A stretch of DNA of 19,267 bases from Tannerella sp. (GTDB taxonomy: Bacteria; Bacteroidota; Bacteroidia; Bacteroidales; Tannerellaceae): the NCBI GenBank assembly GCA_031272655.1, contig JAISTJ010000089.1, positions 1-19,267 on the forward strand, read 5' to 3'. Shown one piece after another: positions 2,977 through 19,267 of the stretch. The notes under the pieces are model-generated. The model was not told the origin of the DNA. It saw nothing but the letters and a program-made list of their open reading frames with translations, and ran no database searches. The translations under genes were made by a program, and so were the position numbers. Every line of letters starts with the position of its first letter. Position 1 is the first letter of the stretch.

Positions 2977-3903
2977 ATGACAAGGTATTTAGATCCGCGA
3001 AGTGATTTGGTTTTCAAACGAATATTCGGTGAAAACAAGGATTTGGCAATGAGTTTTCTCAATGCCCTGCTTCCTTTGCGCCCTGACCAGCAGATTGTTG
3101 AACTTCAGTATTTGAATGCGGAACTTGTGCCGGTAGCGCCTGATATGCGGAACTCTATTGTTGACGTTAGGTGTACCGATAACCGCGGATGGCAATTCTT
3201 TGTTGAGATGCAGATGTTTTGGTCGGCAGGATTTTTTAAACGTATGCTTTTCAATGCCTCGAAAGTTTATACACGTCAGAAAATCAGCAAATCAAGTGAT
3301 TTTTCAATGTTGAAACCCGTTTTCGGTTTAGCGATACTAAATGATATTTTCGATAAAACAACCGACGATTTTTATCATCATTTTGAATTTATCAACCGTA
3401 AGAATCAAGATGAAAAGATTCAGGATATGGAATTTGTGTTTGTTGAGTTGCCTAAATTTGTTCCTGCAACACTGACAGAAAAAAAAATGGCGGTACTGTG
3501 GCTGCGGTTTCTTAATGAGACTGAAGGCGAACATGAAAAACTACCTCCTGAATTTTTTGAAAATGAGGAAATAAGCAGAGCTTTGAGAATGTGTCGCGAA
3601 GGAGCGTTCACTAAACAGCAGTTAGAACACTATGAACGATTTGAAGATGCTGTACTGACTTATAATACTCTCATGGCAGACTCTAAAACAAAAGGACTTG
3701 AAATAGGTAGAGCTGAAGGTAGGGCTGAAGGTAGAGCTGAAGGCATAGTGGAGGGTAGGGTTGAGGGTATAGCGGAACGAAATACTGAATTAGTGCTCAA
3801 TTGCTTCAGCAAAGGTTATGCCGTTGAGCAGATAGCTGATATATCAGGCTTAAGCGATGTAGAAGTAATACAAATTTTAAATCAGAATGGCATAACTATA
3901 TGA
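2977..3903 (+). CDS. Rpn-family PD-(D/E)XK nuclease / putative transposase
   Basis: This 308-residue protein has the PDDEXK_2 (PF12784) architecture of Rpn-like recombination-promoting nucleases, often annotated as putative transposases. The N-terminus has the family hallmark LDPRSDLVFKRIFGE. The nuclease core shows IVDVRC (D63) then FFVEMQM (E77, Q79), fitting the D...ExQ form of the active site. The C-terminal part has a run of G-R-A-E-G type units (about 244-267) that is probably a helical segment, followed by a short helical tail. Such C-terminal repeats are common in the family. Relatives cleave DNA and promote RecA-independent recombination; some act in phage defence. I see no terminal inverted repeats or target duplications, so it is not a recognisable insertion sequence. 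Base composition looks more AT-rich than in neighbouring secDF, compatible with acquisition, but this was not computed. Confidence 0.88.
   Translation: MTRYLDPRSDLVFKRIFGENKDLAMSFLNALLPLRPDQQIVELQYLNAELVPVAPDMRNSIVDVRCTDNRGWQFFVEMQMFWSAGFFKRMLFNASKVYTRQKISKSSDFSMLKPVFGLAILNDIFDKTTDDFYHHFEFINRKNQDEKIQDMEFVFVELPKFVPATLTEKKMAVLWLRFLNETEGEHEKLPPEFFENEEISRALRMCREGAFTKQQLEHYERFEDAVLTYNTLMADSKTKGLEIGRAEGRAEGRAEGIVEGRVEGIAERNTELVLNCFSKGYAVEQIADISGLSDVEVIQILNQNGITI
3706..3777 (+). repeat. Six in-frame 12-base repeats encoding GRAE-type units
   Basis: Units are GGTAGAGCTGAA and variants: the first three are nearly identical and the last three degenerate. Each adds four residues (G-R-A-E, G-I-V-E, G-R-V-E, G-I-A-E) to the C-terminal part of the Rpn-like protein. 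The near-identical first units could expand or contract by slippage without changing frame. Confidence 0.9.
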
Positions 3904-4055: not shown

Positions 4056-5699
4056 ATGAAACTTAAAAATTTACTTTCGATTATCATCCTGAGCGCATCG
4101 GCGCTGTCAGGTGTGGCGCAAGAAGGCGCCGTTTATTTAGACTTTGAAAAAGGTTCAGTACTGATTTCTCGTGCATTTAACAATAACGAATTTCTGTATC
4201 CTGATAATGTCAGTGCAGCCAGTTATGGATACGGGCCTACGTATTTGGGAAGTATGAATGCCTTGCAGTATCCTTATTACAGTAAAACTTTCGAAATCAA
4301 GAAAGTTGATGCGGAAAACCACAAGTACACCATTGTCTCCGAGGGTTTTTCAAGTCCTGTCCCATTTTCTGGAGGTTATCTTACGGATGCCACATATCTG
4401 GCGTTCCCCTCCGAAGGGAAAAGAGATGGATTATATATGTGGGAGTCAGGCTTTGCAAGACTTGTATTCCTTGACGAACCTAATGAAAACAGCGTTTTCG
4501 CTTTCAGGCAAGTAGAGCGCGGCACAAATGACTTTGTTCTGGAGACAGCAAACGGATTCATTAAAATACGTAATGGAGTACCAATTATTACCAATAGTAT
4601 TGAAGATGCTGAAATATTTACCATGTTTAAGGCTGAGACAGAAGGTAGTTTTGGCGAAGATTCAAATCTGACTTGGAGTTATTCCGATAATCGCCTTATT
4701 ATAAGTGGAACGGGCGAGATTGAAGATGCTGAAACGCCGCCATGGAATAATTGTCTGTCAACAGTAAAAGAAATCGTTTTCAAAGAAGGCATCACTTCTA
4801 TTGGTAAAGCTTTTCCATCGTTGAATGATAACGTTTGTGTAGTTATTCCGCCAAGCGTTAAAAATGTTAATAATCAAGCATTTGTAGCAAGCAATTTGAA
4901 AATCACAACCAACTGGACAACCGCCGAAGAACTGCCGAAACTTGGAGATAACGCTTTGGGCGACGTCACCTCCTCGACGTTGGTTATACCGAGAGGAACG
5001 AAGGAAATCTATGAAGCGTCTGACGTCTGGAAAGATTTCAAAACGGTCAGCGAACAAGCTGTAACGGCTTCTACTACATCCGTGCGGGCAAACAAGGGAT
5101 ACTTCAACCTTTCTATGGCTGTGCCCGACGACGCTTCTTTCACTGCTATATTTGAGGTGAAACTTCCGGAAAAATTCACTTTGGATAGGGAAGCTACCGT
5201 CCTGGCTGATGAATTTAAGGATGCGGGTTATACTATTAAAATAACTGAGAAGTCGAACGGGATATATCAATGTGAAATATCCCCTGAAACGACCCAAAGC
5301 GCTTCAGCGTCGTGTTATCCTTTCAGAGAGGTTTTAAAAGTGTACTATATAGTTGACAACTCGCTTGAGAACGGCACATATAGCATAGATATCCAGAACT
5401 GCACGCTCAAAATGCCTGATGGAACGGAGATTCAGGAATCAGCAATAGAGATACCGGTGATTTTCAACACTGTTACGCACAACGTTATAATCGCCAAGCC
5501 GCAACAACAGAAGATTTGGGCTGCCGGCTCGCAACTGTTTATCAACAGCAGTAAACCCGAAACAGTCAATATCTATTCAATAACAGGCGCACTGATGAAA
5601 CGCCTGACCGTATCCGACGGCACAACAACGCTCGCACTCCCCAAAGGAATGTACATTGTCAAATCCGCAACTGCAGTCAGCAAAGTGATTGTGCAATAA
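4056..5699 (+). CDS. Secreted BspA-like protein with type IX-like C-terminal sorting domain
   Basis: This 547-residue protein starts with a signal peptide (about 1-21, SGVA before Q22). Residues about 204-275 resemble part of a BspA-type leucine-rich-repeat protein: LTWSYSDNRLIISGTGEI, then PPWNN, TVKEIVFKEGITSIG and VVIPPSVKNV. Residues about 338-470 look like an all-beta, cohesin-like module (VRANKGYFNLSMAVPDDASF onward). The C-terminal part (about 480-547) has the SQLFINSSKPETVNIYSITG and LPKGMYIVKS pattern of Bacteroidales surface proteins with a T9SS type A sorting domain or a close relative. It is therefore predicted to be exported and possibly cell-surface attached. No enzymatic motif is seen; a binding role is inferred from BspA relatives. 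The gene ends 20 bases before a strong hairpin and probably forms a single-gene unit. Confidence 0.78.
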   Translation: MKLKNLLSIIILSASALSGVAQEGAVYLDFEKGSVLISRAFNNNEFLYPDNVSAASYGYGPTYLGSMNALQYPYYSKTFEIKKVDAENHKYTIVSEGFSSPVPFSGGYLTDATYLAFPSEGKRDGLYMWESGFARLVFLDEPNENSVFAFRQVERGTNDFVLETANGFIKIRNGVPIITNSIEDAEIFTMFKAETEGSFGEDSNLTWSYSDNRLIISGTGEIEDAETPPWNNCLSTVKEIVFKEGITSIGKAFPSLNDNVCVVIPPSVKNVNNQAFVASNLKITTNWTTAEELPKLGDNALGDVTSSTLVIPRGTKEIYEASDVWKDFKTVSEQAVTASTTSVRANKGYFNLSMAVPDDASFTAIFEVKLPEKFTLDREATVLADEFKDAGYTIKITEKSNGIYQCEISPETTQSASASCYPFREVLKVYYIVDNSLENGTYSIDIQNCTLKMPDGTEIQESAIEIPVIFNTVTHNVIIAKPQQQKIWAAGSQLFINSSKPETVNIYSITGALMKRLTVSDGTTTLALPKGMYIVKSATAVSKVIVQ

Positions 5700-9190: not shown

Positions 9191-9221
9191 TTTTTGTTAT
9201 AATAAAAAAAGTGTATTTTTG
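9191..9221 (+). promoter_or_regulatory. Promoter of the Ser/Thr phospho-signalling operon
   Basis: TTTTTG (9191-9196), a 17-base spacer and TATTTTTG (9214-9221) fit the Bacteroidota promoter pattern. The predicted start near 9227 leaves a leader of about 90 bases before the ATG at 9319. Confidence 0.6.
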
Positions 9222-9318
9222 TCGCCCGTCTATGACAAACTCGGTTTGAGAGGCACCGCTGAAATCATCTATTACGACGGCTTTAACTGTTTGATATTTA
9301 ATTTAAAATAACAACATT

Positions 9319-9840
9319 ATGAAAAAAGTAGTATTGACAATGGTATTGGCGCTGGCGAGTCTCGGCGCGACCTACGGACAGGATTTTTACAGTGGGATGA
9401 CTTTATGGAAAGCCAGGACTACCGGAATGGATCTTTCTCTGATTACAGGCGAAAAAGGCTCTAATGCGCTGGAGTTCAATTTGGACGGCGAAGGCGTATT
9501 CTTCTTGTCGAGATGGTTCGCTTTCACCGGATTAGCAGGCATTGATGCCTATAAGTATGGCGATGCGGACGGCGTTCTTGGAGTGAAATTAGGCTTCGGC
9601 ACAAGGTTTTATGCCGCTCCTACCGGCTTTTATGTCGGTCTGGGCATTGACGGCTACAAGAAAGGCGACGCCGACATTTATTCAAACCTGAAGCTTGAGG
9701 CGGGATACACTATTTTTGTGCTTGAGCATGTCTTCCTTGAGCCTGCCCTGCACGCCTCGAAAGCCTATTATTTCGATGAGGGAAAATTTGGTAAGTCTCT
9801 CCGTCTGGGCGCGTCATTTGGTATAGGAGTAGAATTTTGA
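9319..9840 (+). CDS. Small outer-membrane beta-barrel protein
   Basis: This 173-residue protein begins with a clear signal peptide (about 1-20, ending TYG before QDF). The mature part alternates hydrophobic and polar residues in segments rich in Gly and aromatics, such as FTGLAGIDAYKYG, VLGVKLGFGTRFYA, FYVGLGIDGYKKG and LRLGASFGIGVEF. It ends in phenylalanine, a typical outer-membrane insertion signal. The size suits an eight-stranded barrel. Specific family and ligand are unknown. It is the first gene of the operon, directly behind the promoter and direct repeat, and is followed after 12 bases by the zinc-ribbon/FHA gene. This suggests an outer-membrane partner or sensor for the kinase circuit (inference). 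Confidence 0.7.
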   Translation: MKKVVLTMVLALASLGATYGQDFYSGMTLWKARTTGMDLSLITGEKGSNALEFNLDGEGVFFLSRWFAFTGLAGIDAYKYGDADGVLGVKLGFGTRFYAAPTGFYVGLGIDGYKKGDADIYSNLKLEAGYTIFVLEHVFLEPALHASKAYYFDEGKFGKSLRLGASFGIGVEF

Positions 9841-9852
9841 AAACCTGAAGAT

Positions 9853-10599
9853 ATGAGATGCGATAATTGCGGATGGGATAATCCCGACGATAATGTTAAG
9901 TGCGAGAAATGCAACGTATTACTGAACACTTCAGGGGGCAGGGAAAGCTACTCCCGCGACGTTCAGGAATATGCCGGCGACGACAGGAATATCAAAAAGA
10001 CGGTATTCGAGTCAGGCTCTGCCGTAGCCGAACAGGCTGATATTAAGACTATTACGCGCTGTCCCGAATGTGGATATCCGTTGCGAAGCAGCGATGACAC
10101 ATGTCCCGATTGCGGGGCGTTCATAGATACGGATGCTTTCGACTCAGCGCCGGTGCAGGCCGATGTTGACGAAAGAGAAGTCAAGACCGTCAGGTATGCA
10201 GCAGGCAAGTTGCCGCACGCCGAAGCTACGATTAATCCTTGGGAGAAAGCTATCGAAGAGGAGATCGTGGAAGAGGAAGAGGCAGAACCGGAAGAAGAAG
10301 TGATACCCGAACCGGTCGTATGCTACCTGAAACCTCTTCCGCGAGAGAATGAGGCAGAGAAAGAGCGCGTAGAGTTTAACGAAGATACGGTAGTGCTGAA
10401 CAGGGATAACACCGAGCCGGACAACCCGACTATCACCTCAAGGCAACAGGCTGTGCTACGGTATAGAGACGGCAAATGGTACGTCGAAGACCTGAGTGAG
10501 CTTCAGACAACTTTCATCAGGGTTAAAGACCCGACAGAGATAAAAGACGGCGACATACTACTTATGGGGGACCGGCAGTTTCTTTTTAACTGTGAATAA
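9853..10599 (+). CDS. Double zinc-ribbon protein with degenerate C-terminal FHA-like domain
   Basis: This 248-residue soluble protein has two four-cysteine zinc ribbons: C3/C6/C17/C20 (CDNCGW...CEKC) and C70/C73/C84/C87 (CPECGY...CPDC). A long acidic segment (about 133-155, rich in Glu) follows. Residues about 172-248 look like an FHA fold: VVLNRDN, ITSRQQAVLRYRDGKWYVEDLS, then IKDGDILLMGDRQFLF. R184 and S196 of the phosphothreonine-binding set remain, but the conserved SRxH histidine is Gln (Q199) and the NG pair is Q218-T219, so phosphopeptide binding may be weak, altered or lost. No membrane segment is seen. Zinc ribbons with FHA domains occur in bacterial Ser/Thr kinase clusters as adaptors. 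It lies 20 bases before a kinase gene. Confidence 0.75.
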   Translation: MRCDNCGWDNPDDNVKCEKCNVLLNTSGGRESYSRDVQEYAGDDRNIKKTVFESGSAVAEQADIKTITRCPECGYPLRSSDDTCPDCGAFIDTDAFDSAPVQADVDEREVKTVRYAAGKLPHAEATINPWEKAIEEEIVEEEEAEPEEEVIPEPVVCYLKPLPRENEAEKERVEFNEDTVVLNRDNTEPDNPTITSRQQAVLRYRDGKWYVEDLSELQTTFIRVKDPTEIKDGDILLMGDRQFLFNCE

Positions 10600-10619
10600 C
10601 TTCAAACATCAAACTTTCA

Positions 10620-11942
10620 ATGGGCGGAAGCAACAGTAAAATAGCGCAAAGGTGCGATTTCAATCCCGGCGACAGGGTCGGCTCAAGGTATATCGTTGAG
10701 CAGGTCTTGGGCGAAGGCTCTTTCGGGAATGTCTATAAGGTGCACGACTTCAGCAATAATGTATATGCGCTGAAGTTGATGCGCCTGTGGGAAGTGCATC
10801 CTGAGATACGCCAGCAACTGTCCGACCGCTTTGAGATGGAGTTTCAGACCGGGCGCATCAACAGCCGTTATTTGGTGCAGTCGCTCGACTATGGCACGGA
10901 AAAAGGCAACCCGTATATCGTTATGGAGTTTTGTCCGCAGGGCGACCTGCTCCATCTGGCGCAGAAGAAACGCCCCGACTACATCACTGTCGGCAGGCAG
11001 ATATTGTACGGACTGAGGGATCTTCACAGCTGCGGCAAGGTTCACCGAGATTTGAAACCTGAAAATGTGCTGATAAGAGACGACGGCACTTCGGCGTTGA
11101 CCGATTTCGGTATTGCAGGCGACCGTAACAAGCGTATGACCGAACGTAATCTGCTGGGCAAACCGACGCAGATTTTCGGCACTTACGCCTATATGCCTCC
11201 CGAACAGGTTAATCCCAAACGCGGCGAAGCTACTGTGCTGCCTACAACCGACATCTTCTCTTTCGGAGTGCTTATGTATCAGATAATCACCGGAATACTG
11301 CCATTCGGCAGGTTGGATTCCGAAAACGATCTTCCGATATACATTAAGCGTGGCAGGGAAGGCGACTGGGACAGGAAGCTGCTCACAAACTCCCGTCAGG
11401 GAGCGGAGTTTGCAAGAATCATCGAAGGATGTCTTGTGCCTGATTTCAAGAACCGGCTCCAGACTGTTGACGCCGTACTTGCGCTCTTCCCCGCACAATC
11501 GTCTTATGCTGAGGCGGAAGTGAAAATAAGTCCGGAAAAGGATACCTCGTCTTTCAGCCGTGAAGTGAAGTCGGGAGTTTTGCTGAGAATCATGCACGGC
11601 GAAGAGCATGGCACATCGTTCCGTCTCAACGACCTGCTCAAAGACGGCAAACGCCTGCTGACAATGGGCAGGAAAGACATCTCCAGCAACAACAGCATAC
11701 CGCTTGTAGAGACAGGCAGTTGCTATATCTCGCGCAAACACTGCACCCTTGAATGGGATAAACGCAATCAGGTGTGGTATATCCGCGACGGGCAAAGGGA
11801 TATCAATTCCGGAGACGGTTGGAGGGATTCTGTGAACGGAACTTACGTCAATTCATCCGAAGTATCCCGCGACGGCATGGCGTTTTATCCGGGAGACATC
11901 ATCTCGGTTGGAGACGTTAAGCTTCGGGCGGAAGGGTACTGA
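10620..11942 (+). CDS. Ser/Thr protein kinase with C-terminal FHA domain
   Basis: This 440-residue cytoplasmic protein has an N-terminal Hanks-type kinase domain (about 21-290) and a C-terminal FHA domain (about 320-438). It keeps the glycine-rich loop GEGSFG (31-36), K52 in YALKLM, the HRDLKPEN catalytic loop (D144, K146, N149), D162 of the DFG and a PPE motif (193-195). It is therefore predicted active and of the RD type. The FHA part has G350-R351, S371-R372-x-H374 and N406-G407-T408, the full phosphothreonine-binding set. No membrane segment is visible. A self-reading kinase of this type can bind its own or a partner's phosphorylated threonines. It is the cytoplasmic kinase of the operon, and the second kinase lies at 15129. 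The start ATG is the first in frame after the upstream gene. Confidence 0.92.
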   Translation: MGGSNSKIAQRCDFNPGDRVGSRYIVEQVLGEGSFGNVYKVHDFSNNVYALKLMRLWEVHPEIRQQLSDRFEMEFQTGRINSRYLVQSLDYGTEKGNPYIVMEFCPQGDLLHLAQKKRPDYITVGRQILYGLRDLHSCGKVHRDLKPENVLIRDDGTSALTDFGIAGDRNKRMTERNLLGKPTQIFGTYAYMPPEQVNPKRGEATVLPTTDIFSFGVLMYQIITGILPFGRLDSENDLPIYIKRGREGDWDRKLLTNSRQGAEFARIIEGCLVPDFKNRLQTVDAVLALFPAQSSYAEAEVKISPEKDTSSFSREVKSGVLLRIMHGEEHGTSFRLNDLLKDGKRLLTMGRKDISSNNSIPLVETGSCYISRKHCTLEWDKRNQVWYIRDGQRDINSGDGWRDSVNGTYVNSSEVSRDGMAFYPGDIISVGDVKLRAEGY

Positions 11943-11945
11943 TTT

Positions 11946-11987
11946 AATTAAGAATTAAGAATTAAAAGTTAAGAATTAACAATTTAT
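11946..11987 (+). repeat. Degenerate heptamer repeats after the first kinase
   Basis: Two perfect AATTAAG units are followed by AATTAAA, AGTTAAG, AATTAAC and AATTTAT in the same 7-base phase. They begin three bases after the kinase stop codon and fill half of the 86-base gap. The rest is AT-rich with no convincing promoter or terminator. Confidence 0.75.
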
Positions 11988-12028
11988 TTATAAACATATT
12001 TACTAATTTTTTTAATCTTTTTCAGAAA

Positions 12029-13723
12029 ATGGAAAATAAAACTCAATTACAGCCTTACAAGCGCTCATTTTCGGGTTCTGTAGGCGCAGGAGTTGGTTCC
12101 CTGCTGGGACGGGGACGCTCCTATTATGTATTGGAACACTTCAACAGTTCCAAGTATCATCGCGCAGGAGAAGCGCAGGAAATCATTGTTGACCAGATTG
12201 AAATCGGTCGCGACCCGCAGTGTCAGGTGCGCTTCGACAGTTCGTTCAATACTGTCAGCCGCCGTCATGCAGCGATAGTGCGCGAAGGCAGCCGTTGGAA
12301 GCTTGTCCAGCTGTCGTCAACAAACTCCACATTTGTGAACGGTCAGAAAGTTGATGCTGACTGGTATCTTCAGAACGGCGACGAGATTCAGTTGTCGGTA
12401 GGCGGACCTAAGTTAGGGTTCATTATTCCCCAGGGCAACAAGGCTACAGTAGGCAGCATCGGCCTTACACGCCGCTTGAGCCTGTTCCGTCAGCAGGCAT
12501 TAGCGCCTTACAAGACGGCTCTGACAATACTGTCGGTGCTTTTGGCGTTGCTTATTATCGGCGGCGTTTGGTATGCTATCGAGAAAAACCGTGAGACAGA
12601 GGCTCTTATAGCAAAGCAGACAGAGCTGACGCAGCGTGCAGACCAGATCGAAGCCGAGAAAGAAGAGTTGAAAAACAAAGTCGCTTCTTCGGACGAAGAA
12701 GCTGCAGCCATCAAGCGCGACCTTGAGCAGAAAGAGCAGGAACTTGAAGACATCCGCACCGCTCAGGAAGAGTTGAAAAACCGCAAACCACAGGTGATAG
12801 TCCGTCAGGTAGCTGCAACGCCGACGCCTGCGCCTAAAGCAAAAGCTGCGGCGGTAGATGAGGACGAAGATGAGGATGAAGCTCCGGCTCCAAAAGCCAA
12901 AGCATCAGGGGCTAAAAAGATTGAGAACGGTGCAGATGCCTCAGCCACAGGCGTTAACACTTTCGAAGATGTTGAAGCCGTTAATCCTTACGTTTATGTC
13001 ATCATCCTCGACAAACTCGAATGGCAAAACCTCCGCGAGCCGGTTAAATCGTACAAATTCAGCACGATTGTAGGCTCAGGATTTATGCTCAATGACGGCA
13101 GATTCGTAACAGCCCGTCACGTTGTGGAACCGTGGTACTACTATAACCGCGTGATAGAGAAGGACTTGGAGTATGGCAATATGCTGAAGGAAATCAACCG
13201 CGCCGTGTTCAACAACGGCTCGCTGACGGCTCATTACACGATCATATCCCCGACCGGCAGACGCTTCCAATTCTCTTATGACCAGATTATAGCCAACCGT
13301 AGCGACGACAAGCCGCATACACAGAAGAAAGGACGTCGGGTTTACACGTATGTTGAGGCTGAAGCTTCCGACACCCACTCGCGTCTTGACTGGGCTTATT
13401 TCCGTACAAACGAACGGGTAGGCCTTATTCCGGATGTTACATTGTCAAACTCTCTGCCTCAGGGAGTTACGCTTGAAATATTCGGCTATCCTGCCGGTCT
13501 TGGCGCAGAAGATGTGTACAATCTCCGTCCGCAGTATTCAACCGGCGTCGTTTCGGCTCCCGGACTTGACGGATACGGCTTGATAGTATCGTCCAACACT
13601 GAGGGCGCTCATATCGGCGGCCCGGTGATGTACAAGAAAGACGGCAAGTATGTAGCAGTCGGAATAGTTACCGGCGGAGAGTTCAGTAAAAAAGTATTGG
13701 TACCTGTTGCTGAAGTGAAATAA
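12029..13723 (+). CDS. FHA-transmembrane-coiled coil-trypsin-like protein, nucleophile Ser missing
   Basis: This 564-residue protein has a cytoplasmic FHA domain (about 30-135) with the full set: IGRDP, SRRH and STNSTFVNG (S in place of the usual G). A membrane segment at about 163-185 is preceded by basic residues, placing the N-terminus inside. It is followed by a coiled coil (about 188-255, Glu/Lys/Gln rich), an Ala/Pro/Lys linker with an acidic patch (about 260-300), and a trypsin-like domain (about 315-564) predicted to be periplasmic. H364 (TARHVV) and D454 (LDWAYF) occupy the His and Asp positions of the triad. The expected GxSGGP reads GAHIGGP, with I529 where the nucleophile Ser should be. 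The protein is therefore probably a binding pseudoprotease. It would couple a phosphothreonine reader inside to a sensor or scaffold outside. The PP2C gene follows after 10 bases. Confidence 0.88.
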   Translation: MENKTQLQPYKRSFSGSVGAGVGSLLGRGRSYYVLEHFNSSKYHRAGEAQEIIVDQIEIGRDPQCQVRFDSSFNTVSRRHAAIVREGSRWKLVQLSSTNSTFVNGQKVDADWYLQNGDEIQLSVGGPKLGFIIPQGNKATVGSIGLTRRLSLFRQQALAPYKTALTILSVLLALLIIGGVWYAIEKNRETEALIAKQTELTQRADQIEAEKEELKNKVASSDEEAAAIKRDLEQKEQELEDIRTAQEELKNRKPQVIVRQVAATPTPAPKAKAAAVDEDEDEDEAPAPKAKASGAKKIENGADASATGVNTFEDVEAVNPYVYVIILDKLEWQNLREPVKSYKFSTIVGSGFMLNDGRFVTARHVVEPWYYYNRVIEKDLEYGNMLKEINRAVFNNGSLTAHYTIISPTGRRFQFSYDQIIANRSDDKPHTQKKGRRVYTYVEAEASDTHSRLDWAYFRTNERVGLIPDVTLSNSLPQGVTLEIFGYPAGLGAEDVYNLRPQYSTGVVSAPGLDGYGLIVSSNTEGAHIGGPVMYKKDGKYVAVGIVTGGEFSKKVLVPVAEVK

Positions 13724-13733
13724 AGAAACTTGT

Positions 13734-15098
13734 ATGGCTGATATTATATTCAGGTTAGCTGCCCGATGCGAGGCGGCCGGACGTCCTAATAATGAGGATA
13801 ACTTCCTCATCAGTGATAATCTTGAGAGTGGCGAATGGGGATTTCTTACGGATAAAGAGATTACACTGTCGGACAAAGGCGCCTTGCTTGTGGTGGCTGA
13901 TGGTATGGGCGGCATGAAGGCGGGCGAAGTTGCGTCCGCCCTTGCCGTCAAAACCATCAAAGAATGGTTCGCTCCTGCGAACATCACGGACAAAGTTACT
14001 AATACAACCAAATCTGTGAAAGACTATATCCGGAAAGGCATTCAGGAAGCCGACGCCGTAATCAAGAAAGAAAGCGCCGACAACGAGACCAAATCCGGGA
14101 TGGGAAGCACGATAGTGCTTTCATGGCTTACAGGACAGGGACAGATAGTAGTAGGCTGGTGCGGCGACAGTCGCGCCTACCGTTATAACCCAAAGGACGG
14201 GCTGATATTGCTCAGCCACGACCATTCGTATGTGCAGGAGCTTGTTGATAACGGCAAGTTGGATGCTTCTTTGGCGTTCGACTATCCCGACAAAAACATC
14301 ATCACGCGCTCGCTCGGCAATCCGAGCAAGAAAGCCGAGCCAGACATCAAGGAATTTTACCTGCGCAGCGGCGACATCTTCCTGCTGTGCAGCGACGGTC
14401 TTTCGGGCGTACTGCGCGATGCGGAGCTGGAGACTATCATCAGTCATAACACCGAAAGCCTTGCCGCCTGCCGCGAGGCGTTGTGGACAGCCGCTTTTGA
14501 AGCCGGATGGGAAGACAATGTAACGCTGATACTGTGTCAGGCGCTTAAAGTAGGCGACATGCCGGTTCCCGAACCCGATCCTATACCTTTCATTTCGTCG
14601 CAACCTACTCTTAGACAGGAAAATATGTTCCTGTCGGAAGAGGAAATAAAAGAAGCGGAGAAATCGGCAAAAGCAGCGGAAGCAACGGAAACAGCTGAAA
14701 CGGAAAAATCGGAAACAATTGATTTTGAGGACAATGCCAATATTGAAACGCCTGATAATAAGGATATTACAGTAATAAAAAGCGCTGTCGCCACTCCTGC
14801 CGAAACTCCGGAAACAGCAGAAACAAAAGAAACTCCGGAAACAACAACAACAACAGAAACGACAACAGAAACAACAACGACAACAGAAACGGCACAAACT
14901 CAAGAAACAAAAGAAACAAAAGAGCCGTCGCCTGAGGAGCCTGTTATAGAGCCGGATTTGTTAAATTCTCCGGGCAAAAAACGCCGTTGGATGGTAATTC
15001 TCGTTATACTTGCAGCGATATTGTTGCTGTTGTTTTTGGCATACCGTTTTAATTTGTTTGACAGTCAAATCATTATTAATAATTGGTTCGGTAAATGA
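13734..15098 (+). CDS. PP2C-family Ser/Thr phosphatase with C-terminal membrane anchor
   Basis: This 454-residue protein has a PP2C (PPM) domain in the first 270 residues with metal-binding motifs intact: RPNNED (17-22), VADGMGG (54-60, D56), GMGSTIV (122-128), GDSRAYR (144-150, D145), ITRSLG (190-195), CSDG (219-222, D221) and EDN (260-262, D261). It should dephosphorylate Ser/Thr residues in a metal-dependent way and reverse the operon's kinases. A long Glu/Thr/Ala-rich linker (about 295-410) leads to KKRRW (415-419) and a single membrane segment (about 419-437) with a short tail of about 17 residues outside. The catalytic domain is thus tethered to the inner face of the inner membrane, beside the membrane kinase encoded 30 bases downstream. 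Confidence 0.95.
   Translation: MADIIFRLAARCEAAGRPNNEDNFLISDNLESGEWGFLTDKEITLSDKGALLVVADGMGGMKAGEVASALAVKTIKEWFAPANITDKVTNTTKSVKDYIRKGIQEADAVIKKESADNETKSGMGSTIVLSWLTGQGQIVVGWCGDSRAYRYNPKDGLILLSHDHSYVQELVDNGKLDASLAFDYPDKNIITRSLGNPSKKAEPDIKEFYLRSGDIFLLCSDGLSGVLRDAELETIISHNTESLAACREALWTAAFEAGWEDNVTLILCQALKVGDMPVPEPDPIPFISSQPTLRQENMFLSEEEIKEAEKSAKAAEATETAETEKSETIDFEDNANIETPDNKDITVIKSAVATPAETPETAETKETPETTTTTETTTETTTTTETAQTQETKETKEPSPEEPVIEPDLLNSPGKKRRWMVILVILAAILLLLFLAYRFNLFDSQIIINNWFGK
14821..14935 (+). repeat. Low-complexity ACA/GAAAC-rich stretch in the PP2C gene
   Basis: Simple ACA and GAA(A)C repeats encode a Thr/Glu linker (about residues 363-400) with runs of up to five threonines. It probably makes a flexible, possibly phosphorylatable tether between phosphatase domain and membrane anchor, and its length may vary between strains. 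Confidence 0.8.
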
Positions 15099-15128
15099 AC
15101 CGGTTATCCAACAAATATATAGAAAAAG

Positions 15129-16997
15129 ATGCAGTTAAGTGAAGGAATGTTATTTAGCAGGGACCGTTACAAGCTGATAAAATTGCTTGGACGGGGAGGC
15201 TTCTCGGAGGTATGGCTGGTACAGGATATGCGTACCGGTTTGGAGCAGGCTTTGAAAGTCTATGCCCCCGGCATGGGTCTTGATGAAGATGGTATTGCCC
15301 TCTTTATCAAGGAATTTTCGCTTGTTTACAACTTTAATCATTCCAATTTATTAAAACCCTCATACTTTGATGAGGTTGACAATATGCCGTTCCTGATAAT
15401 GCCATATATCCAAAACGGCTCTACTAACAAGATGATAGGTAAGATGGACGAAGAGACTGCATGGCGGTTTTTCCATGACGTAGCATCCGGTCTGGCTTAC
15501 TTACACACTCATAATCCGCCGATTATACATCAGGATATAAAGCCCGACAACATAATGATAGGCGAAAATGAGACCTTCCTGATAACCGATTTCGGCATCA
15601 GCATGCAGGCGCGTCATACCCTTCAGCGGAGTGTTCGCAGCAGCACAACGCTTGATTTTGGCGGCACAATCCCGTATATGGGACCCGAACGTTTCGGTAA
15701 GATGCCCGCACCGGTGAAGTCGAGCGACGTATGGGCGCTCGGAGCGACCGTCTTTGAACTGATGGAAGGCTATGCGCCATTCGGACCTAACGGCGGACTG
15801 ATACAAAAGAGCGGAGCCGACCTGCCTGATATGATCAGCGAATGTTCCGACGAACTCCGTACCCTCGTTGAGCTGTGCCTTCATATTGAGACATGGAATC
15901 GTCCGACAGCCGACAAAATTGTAGAACTGTGCGTAGAAAGGCGTAGCGGCCGCCCGCTCATCTTCCCCGAACATCAGGCGAGCGCCACTCCTACCGGTAA
16001 ACCGATAGTTACACCTTCACCAAAGTCGAAAACCCCTTCGGAAAAACCCGTTCCTGTTGTAAGCGAAGAATCTATCATTGCGGAAGTTATTGGAAATGAA
16101 CCATCTATTCAGGAAGACGACAATATTATCGCCGTTGAAACAGAAGAAAAAGAGCCGGTCGAGGTGGCAGTAAGTGTAGAAGAGCCAAAAGCGCCGCCCG
16201 AAGAGGTTTACATCGAAGTAGAGAAGCCCAAAAGGCGCAGTAAAGCCGTTGCACAAACAATAATTGCCTCTGAGCCACCGGTCGAAACGCCTCCCGACCT
16301 TGAACCGGAACAGCCGGAACAGCCACAGCAACCGGAGCAGCCGGAATTACCGGAACTGCCACAACAGCCGGAACAGCCACAACTGCCGAAACTGCCATCG
16401 AAAAAGGATTATTACGAAAGCCGGTCGGAACAAAATGAAGAAGCGTTGCAAGAACCGCCCATATCAGTTATTGAAAACCGCCCCAAACTCAGCAAGACAT
16501 TTCTTTATGCCATTGCGGGCGTTGTAGCGGCTCTAATACTCGGCGGCGGCATTTACTTCATCCTCAACAATTCCGGTAAGACTGATGAAAAGACAGAGCA
16601 ACCAGCCGAACCGAAGGATGTTCAAACGCAGGTAAACGAACTAATAGAAAAAGGCGACCGACTGTTTGCAGAGCAGACAATCCTTAATCTGAAAGACGCT
16701 AATGACGCTTATTCTCAGGCTAAAGAACTGACTCTGATGAACGGATTGGAAACATCGCAACATCTTAACGACCAGATCAAACTCCTTTCGCAACAAATAG
16801 ATGACTCCGTAAAATCTTATTTGGAAAATGCCGACTTCCTTATCAAGTTTATTGACGACAATCCGGATGTTTCGGCCAAGGATAAAAGGGAGGTTTCCTC
16901 ATTGGCTATCTTTCAGCTTAAAAAATATCTTATTTTGAGAGACGATGAACATAGAAAACAACAAATAGAGAAATTGAAAAAAAATTTGGAGAAATAG
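15129..16997 (+). CDS. Membrane Ser/Thr protein kinase with helical periplasmic domain
   Basis: This 622-residue protein has a Hanks-type kinase domain (about 14-275): GRGGFS loop (21-26), K43 (ALKVY), HQDIKPDN (134-141, D136, K138, N141), D154-F-G and GPE (185-187). The HRD arginine is Gln135, so it is a non-RD kinase whose activation loop may be controlled differently. A charged linker ends in a Pro/Glu/Gln repeat (about 390-420). A membrane segment at about 458-478 follows KTFLY, placing the kinase inside. The last 145 residues are predicted periplasmic and helical (VNELIEKGDRLFAEQTI, DANDAYSQAKEL, SQQIDDSVKSYLENADF), TPR-like in feel but not a clear family match. It would sense envelope state or bind the periplasmic partners. 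The next gene starts five bases after the stop, so translation is probably coupled. Confidence 0.93.
   Translation: MQLSEGMLFSRDRYKLIKLLGRGGFSEVWLVQDMRTGLEQALKVYAPGMGLDEDGIALFIKEFSLVYNFNHSNLLKPSYFDEVDNMPFLIMPYIQNGSTNKMIGKMDEETAWRFFHDVASGLAYLHTHNPPIIHQDIKPDNIMIGENETFLITDFGISMQARHTLQRSVRSSTTLDFGGTIPYMGPERFGKMPAPVKSSDVWALGATVFELMEGYAPFGPNGGLIQKSGADLPDMISECSDELRTLVELCLHIETWNRPTADKIVELCVERRSGRPLIFPEHQASATPTGKPIVTPSPKSKTPSEKPVPVVSEESIIAEVIGNEPSIQEDDNIIAVETEEKEPVEVAVSVEEPKAPPEEVYIEVEKPKRRSKAVAQTIIASEPPVETPPDLEPEQPEQPQQPEQPELPELPQQPEQPQLPKLPSKKDYYESRSEQNEEALQEPPISVIENRPKLSKTFLYAIAGVVAALILGGGIYFILNNSGKTDEKTEQPAEPKDVQTQVNELIEKGDRLFAEQTILNLKDANDAYSQAKELTLMNGLETSQHLNDQIKLLSQQIDDSVKSYLENADFLIKFIDDNPDVSAKDKREVSSLAIFQLKKYLILRDDEHRKQQIEKLKKNLEK
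16300..16392 (+). repeat. Proline-rich repeat in the membrane kinase gene
   Basis: Irregular CCGGAACAG/CCACAACAG/CTGCCG units encode PEQ, PQQ and LP repeats (about residues 391-421). This is a stiff Pro/Gln/Glu linker between the kinase domain and the membrane segment. The repeats are imperfect. Confidence 0.75.
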
Positions 16998-17002
16998 AGA
17001 AC

Positions 17003-18580
17003 ATGAAAACTGTAAAAAAATTATTAACTCTGACAGTATTATTGATACTAACGGCGCTGTCCGCACAAGCGCAGTATGTCGCCTACGAACAAATCCTCAA
17101 GCAGGGCGACGCCCGCTTTCAGTCGGGAACAACCAACATCAACAACAAGCGCTATGACGCCGCCGTAACCGATTTCAACGAAGCTATCCGTTATTATGAG
17201 ACAGCCCGGAAAGCTCCTTCAAAACCTGAAAATGCCGAGGCAACGCTCAATAAAAAAGTAGCCGACTGCCGGTCGCGCATCACACAGGCAACTAATCTCA
17301 AAGCGCAGGCTGCAAAAGCCGCCCAGCAGCCCCCCGCACCCGCGCCGACGCTATCCGTCTCGCAAAAAGAACTGCGATTCACAGCCGCCGATTCCGTGAT
17401 TATCCTTAACGTCAATACCAACCAGAAAAGCTGGAAATTAGACGCCGAGTTGCTGCCTGCATGGTGCGAACCAAGCCATTCGGTCAATGAAAAAGAACTT
17501 ATGGTAACGGTTCAGAAAAACACGGCAGCCAAAAGCCGAAGCTGCGCTTTCGACATCGTTACCGGCAATCTGCGGGAACGAATAGAAGTCTTTCAAAGCG
17601 CGTTGGAAATAACCATGGAAGTGAATAAACGCGAACTGAACTTCAATTCCGATGATGACAGTACTGATTATCAGTCAGTTAGCGTTGTATGCAACACCGA
17701 TTGGGAACTTGTAAACAATGAATATCCAGACATCATAGGCCTGAAGCAGGAAGCCGACAGCGTTCTTGTCTTTATGAAAGTGCATAACGCATACGAAACG
17801 AGAAGGCAGTACCAGTTCAAAATATTGTCCGGAAATAAAGAGGAGACAATAACGGTTTGGCATGAAAAAACCGAAGGAAAAAAAAATAACGCCGCGCAAG
17901 CTACTAAACAAAATACGCGGAAAGAAGAACTAAAAGCCCCGACTACGCCCACTCAACGGGGACAGGCAGTTACGCCATCATCGGAGCAAAGATATTCTTC
18001 CGGCGCCAAAAAGACTGCCGAGACGACCGTAAAAGAACCCGGAAGTCCCGTACTTTTGAACGAGAAACGCGGGTTCGGAATCTATGCCGGATATGCGTTG
18101 AAACAACTTGACGTGAACGGCAGCAATATGAGTCTCAACGGCATGCAGGCAGGCGCCCGCTATGACTACTATTTCCTGCCCGACAAACTCGGATTAGGCC
18201 TCAGCGTAGGCTTGCTCTATGAGATGTTCGGCGGCGATACTAAGGCTTACAACTACGGGGATACCAATCCCCAAAACGGATGGGGCGTCGGCTATGCGCA
18301 TGTATCCGAATCAGGGGTCAGCATCCCTGTTAACGCACTCTACAGGCTCGATTTCTCCGAGACGATGGGGTTGATAATTCAGGCGGGCGTTTGCGCCGAT
18401 TATTCCATGTCGAGCAAAATAACTTATGAAACAGGGACTTTTGAAAGTCTGCCTGCTGCGTTCAAAATATCCCCCTCCGTTGGCGCAAGCCTCCAATTCG
18501 GTCCGGTTGCCATCAATGTCTCCGGAGCCATCGGCTCAAAAATCCCGATGCTCGGAGTTATTTTCTATTTAACTAAATGA
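17003..18580 (+). CDS. Secreted TPR-like / double BACON / outer-membrane barrel protein
   Basis: This 525-residue protein has a signal peptide (about 1-23, ending AQA before Q). Residues about 27-95 look like a short TPR-type helical part (RYDAAVTDFNEAIRYYETA). Two BACON-like beta modules follow at about 114-199 and 200-288; each opens with a LSVSQKELRF / MEVNKRELNF strand, has a W near the middle (NQKSWKLD, NTDWELV) and closes with an ERIEVFQ / EETITVWHE strand. After a Thr/Lys-rich linker (about 289-350), residues 353-525 look like an outer-membrane barrel (FGIYAGYALKQ, GARYDYYFLPDKLGLGLSVGLLYE, SVGASLQFGPVAINVSG, ending LGVIFYLTK). It would place TPR and BACON modules in the periplasm or at the surface, reachable by the membrane kinase or pseudoprotease (inference). 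Domain limits are by eye. Confidence 0.72.
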   Translation: MKTVKKLLTLTVLLILTALSAQAQYVAYEQILKQGDARFQSGTTNINNKRYDAAVTDFNEAIRYYETARKAPSKPENAEATLNKKVADCRSRITQATNLKAQAAKAAQQPPAPAPTLSVSQKELRFTAADSVIILNVNTNQKSWKLDAELLPAWCEPSHSVNEKELMVTVQKNTAAKSRSCAFDIVTGNLRERIEVFQSALEITMEVNKRELNFNSDDDSTDYQSVSVVCNTDWELVNNEYPDIIGLKQEADSVLVFMKVHNAYETRRQYQFKILSGNKEETITVWHEKTEGKKNNAAQATKQNTRKEELKAPTTPTQRGQAVTPSSEQRYSSGAKKTAETTVKEPGSPVLLNEKRGFGIYAGYALKQLDVNGSNMSLNGMQAGARYDYYFLPDKLGLGLSVGLLYEMFGGDTKAYNYGDTNPQNGWGVGYAHVSESGVSIPVNALYRLDFSETMGLIIQAGVCADYSMSSKITYETGTFESLPAAFKISPSVGASLQFGPVAINVSGAIGSKIPMLGVIFYLTK

Positions 18581-18598
18581 TAATTAACTAATTAGAAT

Positions 18599-19267
18599 AT
18601 GAAAACTACTTTTAGATATTCATCAGTCGGATTACATTCCCGTCATGACGGAGAACGATGCAATCATGTGATTTTCCGCTACATTCGCAATGGCGCGAGG
18701 CTAAAAAGGGCGCTTGTCCTGTTGCTCGTTATATTCGCGGCATGCTCGCCCGACGAATCGCAATTCCGATACACCGTTAACGGCAGGGTAACAGAGCAGG
18801 GAGGCGCCAATATTAACGGCAATAACCTCTCTATAACTCTCTCACCTGCAACGAGTAACGACAAAATAGTCAACAGCGACGGCTCTTATGCCTTCCACAA
18901 AGTCATCGAAGGCGAATATACGGTTTCCGTTACCGACAACTCCGGCATGTTTTACGAGGAAACATCAGACCCGTTTCATGTCGGCAAAGGCTCAAACAAT
19001 AACGTTCAGATAACGCTTCGCCGCAGGGCTTTCAGCATTACCGGCAAGGTTACGGACGCATCCACCAACAGCGCTATCAGCGGCGTTTCCGTAAAATATT
19101 CCGGCGCCATAGTAGCCACTACCGACGCAAGCGGCAATTACACAACGCCCCAGTACCAGCCCGGCAGCTACTCTTTCACGTTTGAAAAAGACGGCTATCA
19201 AGCCAAAACAGCTTCGACAACTATCTCAAACACAGGCGCTTCACCATTAGACGTCAAGCTGACGCCA
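18599..19267 (+). CDS. Lipoprotein with carboxypeptidase-regulatory-like domains (partial)
   Basis: An open frame of 223 codons runs off the right edge. A lipobox LVIFAAC puts the lipidated cysteine at residue 49, so this should be a membrane-anchored lipoprotein. After it, residues about 56-110 (YTVNGRVTEQGG...SDGSYAFHKVIEGEYTVSV) and about 127-180 (FSITGKVTDASTNSAISGVSV...DASGNYTTPQYQPGSYSFTF) are two repeated CarboxypepD_reg-type beta sandwiches, with a third region beginning. The chosen ATG gives an unusually long 38-residue stretch before the hydrophobic core; GTG at 18668 (V24) would give a more normal signal peptide. A 12-base palindrome lies in the disputed part. It follows the BACON-barrel gene by 18 bases and is probably the last visible gene of the operon. 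Confidence 0.72.
   Translation, partial: MKTTFRYSSVGLHSRHDGERCNHVIFRYIRNGARLKRALVLLLVIFAACSPDESQFRYTVNGRVTEQGGANINGNNLSITLSPATSNDKIVNSDGSYAFHKVIEGEYTVSVTDNSGMFYEETSDPFHVGKGSNNNVQITLRRRAFSITGKVTDASTNSAISGVSVKYSGAIVATTDASGNYTTPQYQPGSYSFTFEKDGYQAKTASTTISNTGASPLDVKLTP

Follow-up and report, generated by a model that had tools for sequence, protein, structure and literature searches.

How might a phosphate written on a protein in the cytoplasm act on the envelope of a bacterial cell? To our knowledge, most work on bacterial Ser/Thr phosphorylation has dealt with kinases that sense the cell wall and with the control of type VI secretion. We analyzed contig JAISTJ010000089.1 of a Tannerella sp. assembly (GCA_031272655.1, Bacteroidales), the whole of which, 19,267 bases, is called the window here (contig C224 of genome bin G000, 72.5% complete). 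It carries an operon for two Ser/Thr kinases, a PP2C phosphatase and several FHA-domain proteins, among them FHAP, which joins an FHA domain through a transmembrane segment and a coiled coil to a trypsin fold. The operon is conserved and is undescribed in the full-text literature searched (most subscription journals lie outside that coverage), and the window holds a protease-dead subtype of it. The linkage and the parts are firm; the mechanism is not.

Eight same-strand genes, from position 9319 to the contig end, form the operon; visible sequence stops there and the last gene runs off. They encode, in order, a small secreted protein, a zinc-ribbon/FHA protein (ZFHA), a kinase with an FHA domain (KIN-FHA), FHAP, a membrane PP2C, a transmembrane kinase (KIN-TM), a TPR/BACON/barrel protein and a lipoprotein. 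The intergenic gaps are 12, 20, 86, 10, 30, 5 and 18 bases, and 350 bases separate the first gene from the SecDF gene upstream. An initial annotation, made from the sequence, had described these eight genes as a candidate envelope-spanning phospho-signaling operon; all eight open reading frames were found, and their Pfam domains and hydropathy match that description.

A neighborhood survey was anchored on FHAP. The protein search scored 7999 candidates, of which 2213 passed and 120 were listed; alignments took in 34, 66 or 63 of these. A contig scan gave 181 places, the best 80 of which were kept; these and the loci of relatives made 95 loci (numbered L) after de-duplication by the last 150 residues of FHAP, neighboring genes playing no part in the choice. 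Linkage was counted within six genes on the same strand at the 56 loci whose flanks exceed 3.5 kb upstream and 5 kb downstream, and three loci with similarity to the FHA domain only (L104, L117 and L148) remain among the 95. A kinase lies near FHAP at 56/56 loci, a PP2C gene at 55/56 and a zinc-ribbon/FHA gene at 51/56. The gene set is recurrent, and its linkage, on which the idea of a separate system had been made to depend, is far from chance. Two kinases are found at 31 of these loci, three at 18, four at 3 and one at 4. The usual gene order is ZFHA, KIN-FHA, (MotB, MotA), FHAP, C4, PP2C, KIN-TM, followed by varying secreted genes, where C4 is a further secreted protein (39/56) and the MotB-like (11/56) and MotA-like (10/56) genes form a pair. 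The genes first listed are all present in the window; that list is incomplete for the usual locus, which adds C4 and sometimes the MotA/MotB-like pair. Records from named isolates that carry the locus include Odoribacter laneus YIT 12061, Barnesiella sp. An22 and Bacteroides sp. 519, making it experimentally testable. In the draft record of Phocaeicola sartorii JCM 17136 (L099), decay or an assembly error has divided the kinase into two open reading frames, and FHAP likewise.

FHAP is predicted to have one transmembrane segment, and its trypsin fold, likewise predicted, would lie in the periplasm. The AlphaFold2 model (mean pLDDT 78, pTM 0.50) contains one long helix, residues 141-218, that spans the transmembrane segment, and long helices extend over residues 141-252. 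Residues R61, S77, H80, N99 and N104 of the FHA domain are invariant in the 66 relatives aligned of the 120 listed, and the domain profile matches solved FHA domains such as that of GarA (1e-7). From these residues, we infer that the domain may bind phosphothreonine. The trypsin domain is predicted to have the S1C fold of the HtrA family; DegS, AlgW and the RsgI9 S1C domain are among the solved structures nearest to it. In the window, His364 and Asp454 are kept and Ile529 stands in place of the catalytic serine (HDI, not HDS), which bears out the term ‘pseudoprotease’ applied to this protein at first reading. The same serine-site sequence, GAHIG, occurs in two metagenome relatives that are 88% and 74% identical to the window FHAP. 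The term does not hold for the family, of which the window is a special case: the His-Asp-Ser triad is kept in 71/87 rows.

The state of the triad is linked to C4, a protein of most loci, absent from the window, that has a predicted trypsin fold without catalytic serine. The count used 87 usable rows. Eight of the 95 loci were left out: L099 (split gene), L109 (fragment), L104, L117 and L148 (FHA similarity only) and L076, L081 and L083 (contig edge); ‘broken triad’ takes in three rows without a protease domain, and the C4 of L094, masked by an opposite-strand open reading frame, was detected by profile. Triad and C4 occur together in 61 rows, the triad only in 10, neither in 15 and C4 with a broken triad in 1, so that C4 is missing from 15/16 rows with a broken triad. 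The link is one-sided: C4 loss is tolerated with an intact protease, and a dead protease keeps C4 in 1/16 rows, which fits C4 acting on or through an active protease. On a tree built from FHA, kinase and PP2C sequences with gaps allowed, the minimum number of changes is at least 8 for the triad and 12 for C4. Six independent, well-supported pairs show a difference in the triad; on average, 4.8 of them show the matching difference in C4 and none the opposite one. With the 68 complete rows (48 with both, 8 with the triad only, 1 with C4 only and 11 with neither), there are again 6 supported pairs, 4.6 together and none opposite (median p 0.0625). The link recurs and is suggestive, and it falls short of significance; the repeated joint absence gives a direct handle on the role of the secreted pseudoprotease.

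A search for C4 elsewhere scored 6219 candidates and found 25 proteins, for which no Pfam domain is listed. All rows printed by Foldseek and VIA-align for C4 are trypsin-like folds, which leaves room for other folds beyond those rows. At L139 (8203-9141), an extra secreted trypsin-like protein with the motif GNSGGP lies between FHAP and C4. C4 is fused in frame with an outer-membrane barrel domain at L102 (6978-8837), a locus of the window genome.

The active sites of the writers and eraser are conserved. In KIN-FHA, the catalytic Lys, HRD Asp, Asn and DFG Asp are present in 76/76 sequences, and in its FHA domain Ser and Asn are kept in 76/76, Arg in 73/76 and His in 74/76. The same four catalytic places are kept in 104-107 of the 110 kinases not adjoining ZFHA. 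By hydropathy, none of the 76 kinases directly behind ZFHA has a transmembrane segment after residue 280 and 83 of the 110 others have one; therefore, one kinase is soluble and another usually membrane-spanning. KIN-TM represents a conserved type with a variable outer domain, the outer tails ranging from 0 to 932 residues. Seven loci (L043, L080, L084, L087, L091, L094 and L097) have a small FHA gene after PP2C and, next to it, a gene for a kinase of 1114-1260 residues. The PP2C proteins keep four metal-site Asp columns in 84/84 and a transmembrane segment in 82/84 (hydropathy), and within the window FHAP, PP2C and the second kinase have one hydrophobic segment each. Ahead of this segment the window PP2C has a linker with 19% Thr, against a family median of 6%; a Thr-rich linker was rejected as a general FHA ligand, because only 8/84 exceed 12% Thr. 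ZFHA keeps its zinc cysteines in 73-75/77.

Some loci encode a MotA/ExbB-family protein (1.8e-14 and 3e-13) and a partner directly before FHAP. An Asp in the N-terminal hydrophobic stretch of the MotB-like partner is invariant (12/12 aligned), and when the MotA-like protein was compared by sequence with solved structures, Motility protein A was the one match, a weak one (E 0.02). The outer domain of the partner was considered as a named family and rejected, as no Pfam model exceeded its cut-off (best NOMO_6th, 0.0024, in one of three). Outside the class of the window genome, the two loci read from three matching genomes (L153 and L154; the third is L155) both have MotA-MotB-FHAP-PP2C, and L153 also carries ZFHA and two kinases. 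The FHAPs of both retain GNSGGP, and the C4 profile had no match in either locus. The presence of the pair in another class suggests an ancient channel that many gut lineages have lost; alternatively, it may have been gained repeatedly.

Table 1. Coordinates of the operon, its candidate promoter and the parts of FHAP in the window.
Feature	Position	Strand	Basis
FHAP: FHA, transmembrane segment, coiled coil, trypsin fold; system anchor	12029..13723	+	Pfam FHA + Trypsin_2, AlphaFold2, homologues
FHA domain of FHAP, residues 58-122, probably cytoplasmic	12200..12394	+	Pfam 7e-18
Predicted transmembrane segment of FHAP, residues 157-186	12497..12586	+	hydropathy
HtrA-like trypsin fold of FHAP, residues 311-564, probably periplasmic	12959..13720	+	
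Ile529 codon where the catalytic serine is expected	13613..13615	+	alignments
ZFHA: zinc ribbons and divergent FHA, without transmembrane segment; conserved part	9853..10599	+	Pfam
KIN-FHA: Ser/Thr kinase and C-terminal FHA, no transmembrane segment behind the kinase domain; conserved	10620..11942	+	Pfam Pkinase + FHA
PP2C phosphatase, Thr-rich linker, C-terminal transmembrane segment; conserved part	13734..15098	+	Pfam
KIN-TM: Ser/Thr kinase, transmembrane segment, 141-residue C-terminal part (probably periplasmic)	15129..16997	+	Pfam Pkinase, hydropathy
Candidate operon promoter	9193..9221	+	TTTG-N17-TATTTTTG pattern match
Small secreted protein, barrel-like on inspection; not conserved	9319..9840	+	no family match
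TPR/BACON/barrel protein, secreted; recurrent accessory	17003..18580	+	weak Pfam
Lipoprotein with two CarboxypepD_reg stretches, accessory; cut by contig end	18599..19267	+	Pfam 4e-22

The best explanation of the whole, to which we give an even chance, is an inner-membrane phosphothreonine pathway of Bacteroidota in which an HtrA-like module in the periplasm serves as output or scaffold. KIN-TM would sense through its variable outer domain, KIN-TM and the soluble KIN-FHA would write phosphothreonine on operon proteins, and the membrane PP2C would erase it. The FHA domain of FHAP would read the mark in the cytoplasm, the reader itself being the transmembrane link, and the helices over residues 141-252 may relay clustering or strain outwards to the HtrA-like domain, so as to cluster, place or reshape it. 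Because HtrA proteases respond to their oligomer state and to ligands in the cleft, recruitment by FHA could control the FHAP protease. The periplasmic domain may cut periplasmic proteins or, in the window, only bind them. At most loci, C4 might act together with the active protease, whether as its regulator, as a decoy or as a substrate, and the secreted TPR/BACON/barrel proteins might be outer clients or sensors. Signaling could conceivably extend all the way to the outer membrane. Since the window subtype lacks C4 and its own protease domain is dead, FHAP there should be a phospho-controlled binding scaffold. A likeness is offered by MamO (fold match 5hm9), a trypsin-fold protein repurposed for binding without proteolysis, in a different pathway and without an FHA domain. 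More tentatively, and at somewhat less than an even chance, we propose a separate transmembrane signaling class in which threonine phosphorylation controls an HtrA-like (pseudo)protease via an FHA protein that crosses the membrane once. A MotA/MotB-type ion channel would originally have driven or gated this signaling, a secreted pseudoprotease would tune it, and the window would be an end state with phospho-gated binding only. A conserved operon that ties kinases, PP2C and FHA to a periplasmic protease fold would show how a phosphate in the cytoplasm can affect the envelope with no need for transcription.

Several observations weigh against this pathway. The usual His of the FHA motif is replaced by Gln in 65/77 ZFHA sequences, and ZFHA may therefore not read phosphothreonine. 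The 10 rows that keep the triad without C4, and L053, which has C4 with a broken triad, do not follow the joint pattern, and with kinship counted the triad/C4 link is non-significant (sign test, median p 0.0625, range 0.0625-0.25). From the C4 side, among 10 supported pairs the triad differs likewise in 5.0 and shows no difference in 4.9, and a tree from the FHA domain only (93 rows: 66 with both, 10 with the triad only, 1 with C4 only, 16 with neither) is poorly resolved and yields 2 supported pairs. The fold common to C4 and FHAP is a prediction: profile comparison of the two was weak, aligning 28 columns at 9% probability, and the Foldseek TM-scores of C4 are modest (0.24-0.55). The window, as most loci, is without the MotA/MotB-like genes. 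Finally, the direction of the signal could be reversed, outside-in, which is nearly as open.

Such a reversal underlies the first rival explanation, a DegS-like stress sensor in which the periplasmic trypsin fold would bind misfolded or foreign envelope peptides and pass its state inwards, through the transmembrane segment, coiled coil and FHA domain, to the kinases and PP2C. FHAP resembles the HtrA stress proteases, DegS above all, in its membrane-anchored and probably periplasmic S1C fold, with DegS, AlgW and RsgI9 among the closest solved folds; a dead protease, as in the window, could still be a peptide sensor, and the wide length range of the TM-kinase tails suits sensing. DegS, however, senses through its PDZ domain, and no PDZ is found among the Pfam matches of FHAP up to E 0.1; FHAP ends with the trypsin fold, has an FHA domain at its other end and in the window has lost the serine. 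Furthermore, FHA is a reader and not a writer, so that some writer is still needed, and neither an anti-sigma factor nor a site-2 protease is among the 25 flanking families listed, no search having been aimed at either. We consider this explanation rather unlikely.

Alternatively, the operon may be a defense or conflict system, with toxin/antitoxin kinases like those of KKP or with a sensor that detects attack on the envelope, and its distribution is of that kind. By title, 72 of the best 80 of the 181 places are Bacteroidales and 78 Bacteroidota; one has no rank and one is Clostridia (L097), a label that may be a binning error. FHAP was found in 13/393 sampled genomes of the order (E 1e-20) and 3/394 at phylum level (the window genome counted in both), and in 3/244 genomes of another class of the phylum. 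The window genome itself holds three FHAP loci (C224, C11 and C42); the loci are patchy and can be multi-copy, and their secreted parts change. A phage-type integrase gene adjoins L097, its cluster occurring at 5 loci (repeats of the same locus counted), and both window kinases match the PADLOC MADS and PD-T4-6 kinase models. These matches, however, reflect kinase-domain similarity, and no nuclease or known effector is among the listed flanking families with at least 2 members (25/143 and 25/106). PMC11341870 describes KKP of Pf and other prophages as phosphatase-kinase-kinase; its genes measure 900-1300 bp, and one of the kinases bears a cold-shock domain. The operon, like KKP, combines a single PP2C with two kinases, one of which has an FHA domain, but differs in its order (ZFHA-KIN-FHAP-PP2C-KIN), gene lengths, membrane parts and protease fold, and no cold-shock domain (CSD) is among the Pfam matches of either window kinase up to E 0.1. 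As for the Zorya defense system, MotA-like genes of some relative loci show weak ZorA similarity (PADLOC, 2e-6 to 0.0013) and the MotB-like partner one weak ZorB match (0.0013), but the C-terminal half of the partner has no Pfam match over cut-off, and no Zorya gene (ZorA, ZorB, ZorC/D or ZorE) is among the PADLOC matches listed for eight window proteins. A defense role appears improbable.

The window copy could also be a decaying paralogue that lost its serine and C4 through disuse, the other two FHAP loci of the genome (C11 and C42) having intact triads. Its reading frames and remaining catalytic residues, however, are intact, the same serine change is found in the two relatives named above, and dead versions recur on the tree, with no fewer than 8 switches in triad state; decay is thus quite improbable.

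We also compared the locus with type VI and vWA systems. Of the unlabelled flanking genes, 121/156 downstream and 52/68 upstream were scanned. BACON was the commonest family listed downstream (23), followed by Sel1 (9) and TPR, and again came first upstream (13); no type VI or vWA family was among the 25 listed for either flank. VipB (PF05943), the single type VI marker used, was found in 0/19 carrier genomes, several of them incomplete, and in 1/14 control genomes, that of E. coli. VWA_2 (PF13519) had matches in 8/9 carrier genomes, several incomplete, never on the contigs of the locus, and Pfam gave no vWA match in ten window proteins scanned. These results agree with the original report that neither a type VI nor a vWA gene is seen at the locus. 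TerY-P triads consist of vWA, PP2C and a kinase with zinc ribbons; our locus shares the kinase, PP2C and zinc ribbons, but has no vWA match and carries FHA and a protease fold instead. A kinase-PP2C-vWA linkage is mentioned in PMC7159879. The type VI pathway, as given in PMC3953482, involves PpkA-PppA-Fha and TssL phosphorylation, Fha binding the phosphothreonine of inner-membrane TssL. There, as proposed here, a kinase and an FHA reader govern an envelope machine, and the locus likewise combines a transmembrane kinase, PP2C and an FHA reader; it differs in that the window reader is itself membrane-spanning with a trypsin fold, and in having two kinases, ZFHA and no VipB (19 carriers). With no type VI marker found, the operon is therefore not a member of that pathway, and although it shares the part types kinase, PP2C and FHA, and the TagH model weakly resembles two window proteins (at 3e-5 and 0.0025, well short of the cut-off), its being a detached regulatory part of a type VI or TerY-P locus is largely refuted by the VipB and VWA_2 counts and barely credible.

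The remaining genes of the operon are less constant. The product of the first had been taken for an outer-membrane barrel, which we could not confirm: it has no Pfam or NCBIfam match up to E 0.1, and among the loci fetched by then it matched only itself. For the lipoprotein, a single relative was found, close to where another locus (L027, the same as L111) ends downstream; neither gene counts among the conserved parts. The Pfam matches of the TPR/BACON/barrel protein all fall under curated cut-offs (26.5 bits against 27 for the OMP barrel). Its TPR/BACON half matches 29 open reading frames in the fetched loci, self and duplicate loci counted, and its barrel half matches only itself there. Upstream of the operon lies the pattern TTTG-N17-TATTTTTG, which we take to be a Bacteroidetes-type promoter motif. 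The window has 2 matches where shuffling leads us to expect 0.61, and 26/200 shuffles reach 2. Of the single promoter first reported, the motif stands; the pattern is too common to prove it, and the candidate, weak on its own, is plausible.

The window genome also has a parallel operon (L104, 6342-11087, contig C150) of the order FHA - FHA - PP2C - FHA/aspartyl protease - kinase. Its fourth protein combines an N-terminal FHA domain with a stretch judged hydrophobic by eye and with a domain of retropepsin-like type (PF13975, 1.4e-15), so that two unrelated protease folds, trypsin and retropepsin-like, stand behind an FHA domain in one genome. We rejected this gene as a second common system, since 32/295 order genomes match and the listed ones, the window genome excepted, match over half the protein only. 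Elsewhere in the window, positions 4056-5699 encode a secreted protein with LRR_5-like and Por_Secre_tail-like stretches, both under Pfam cut-offs, and positions 2977-3903 a PD-(D/E)XK transposase-family protein (PF12784, 1.2e-40). Two adjacent URO-D family genes, possibly encoding methyltransferases, occupy positions 330-2908.

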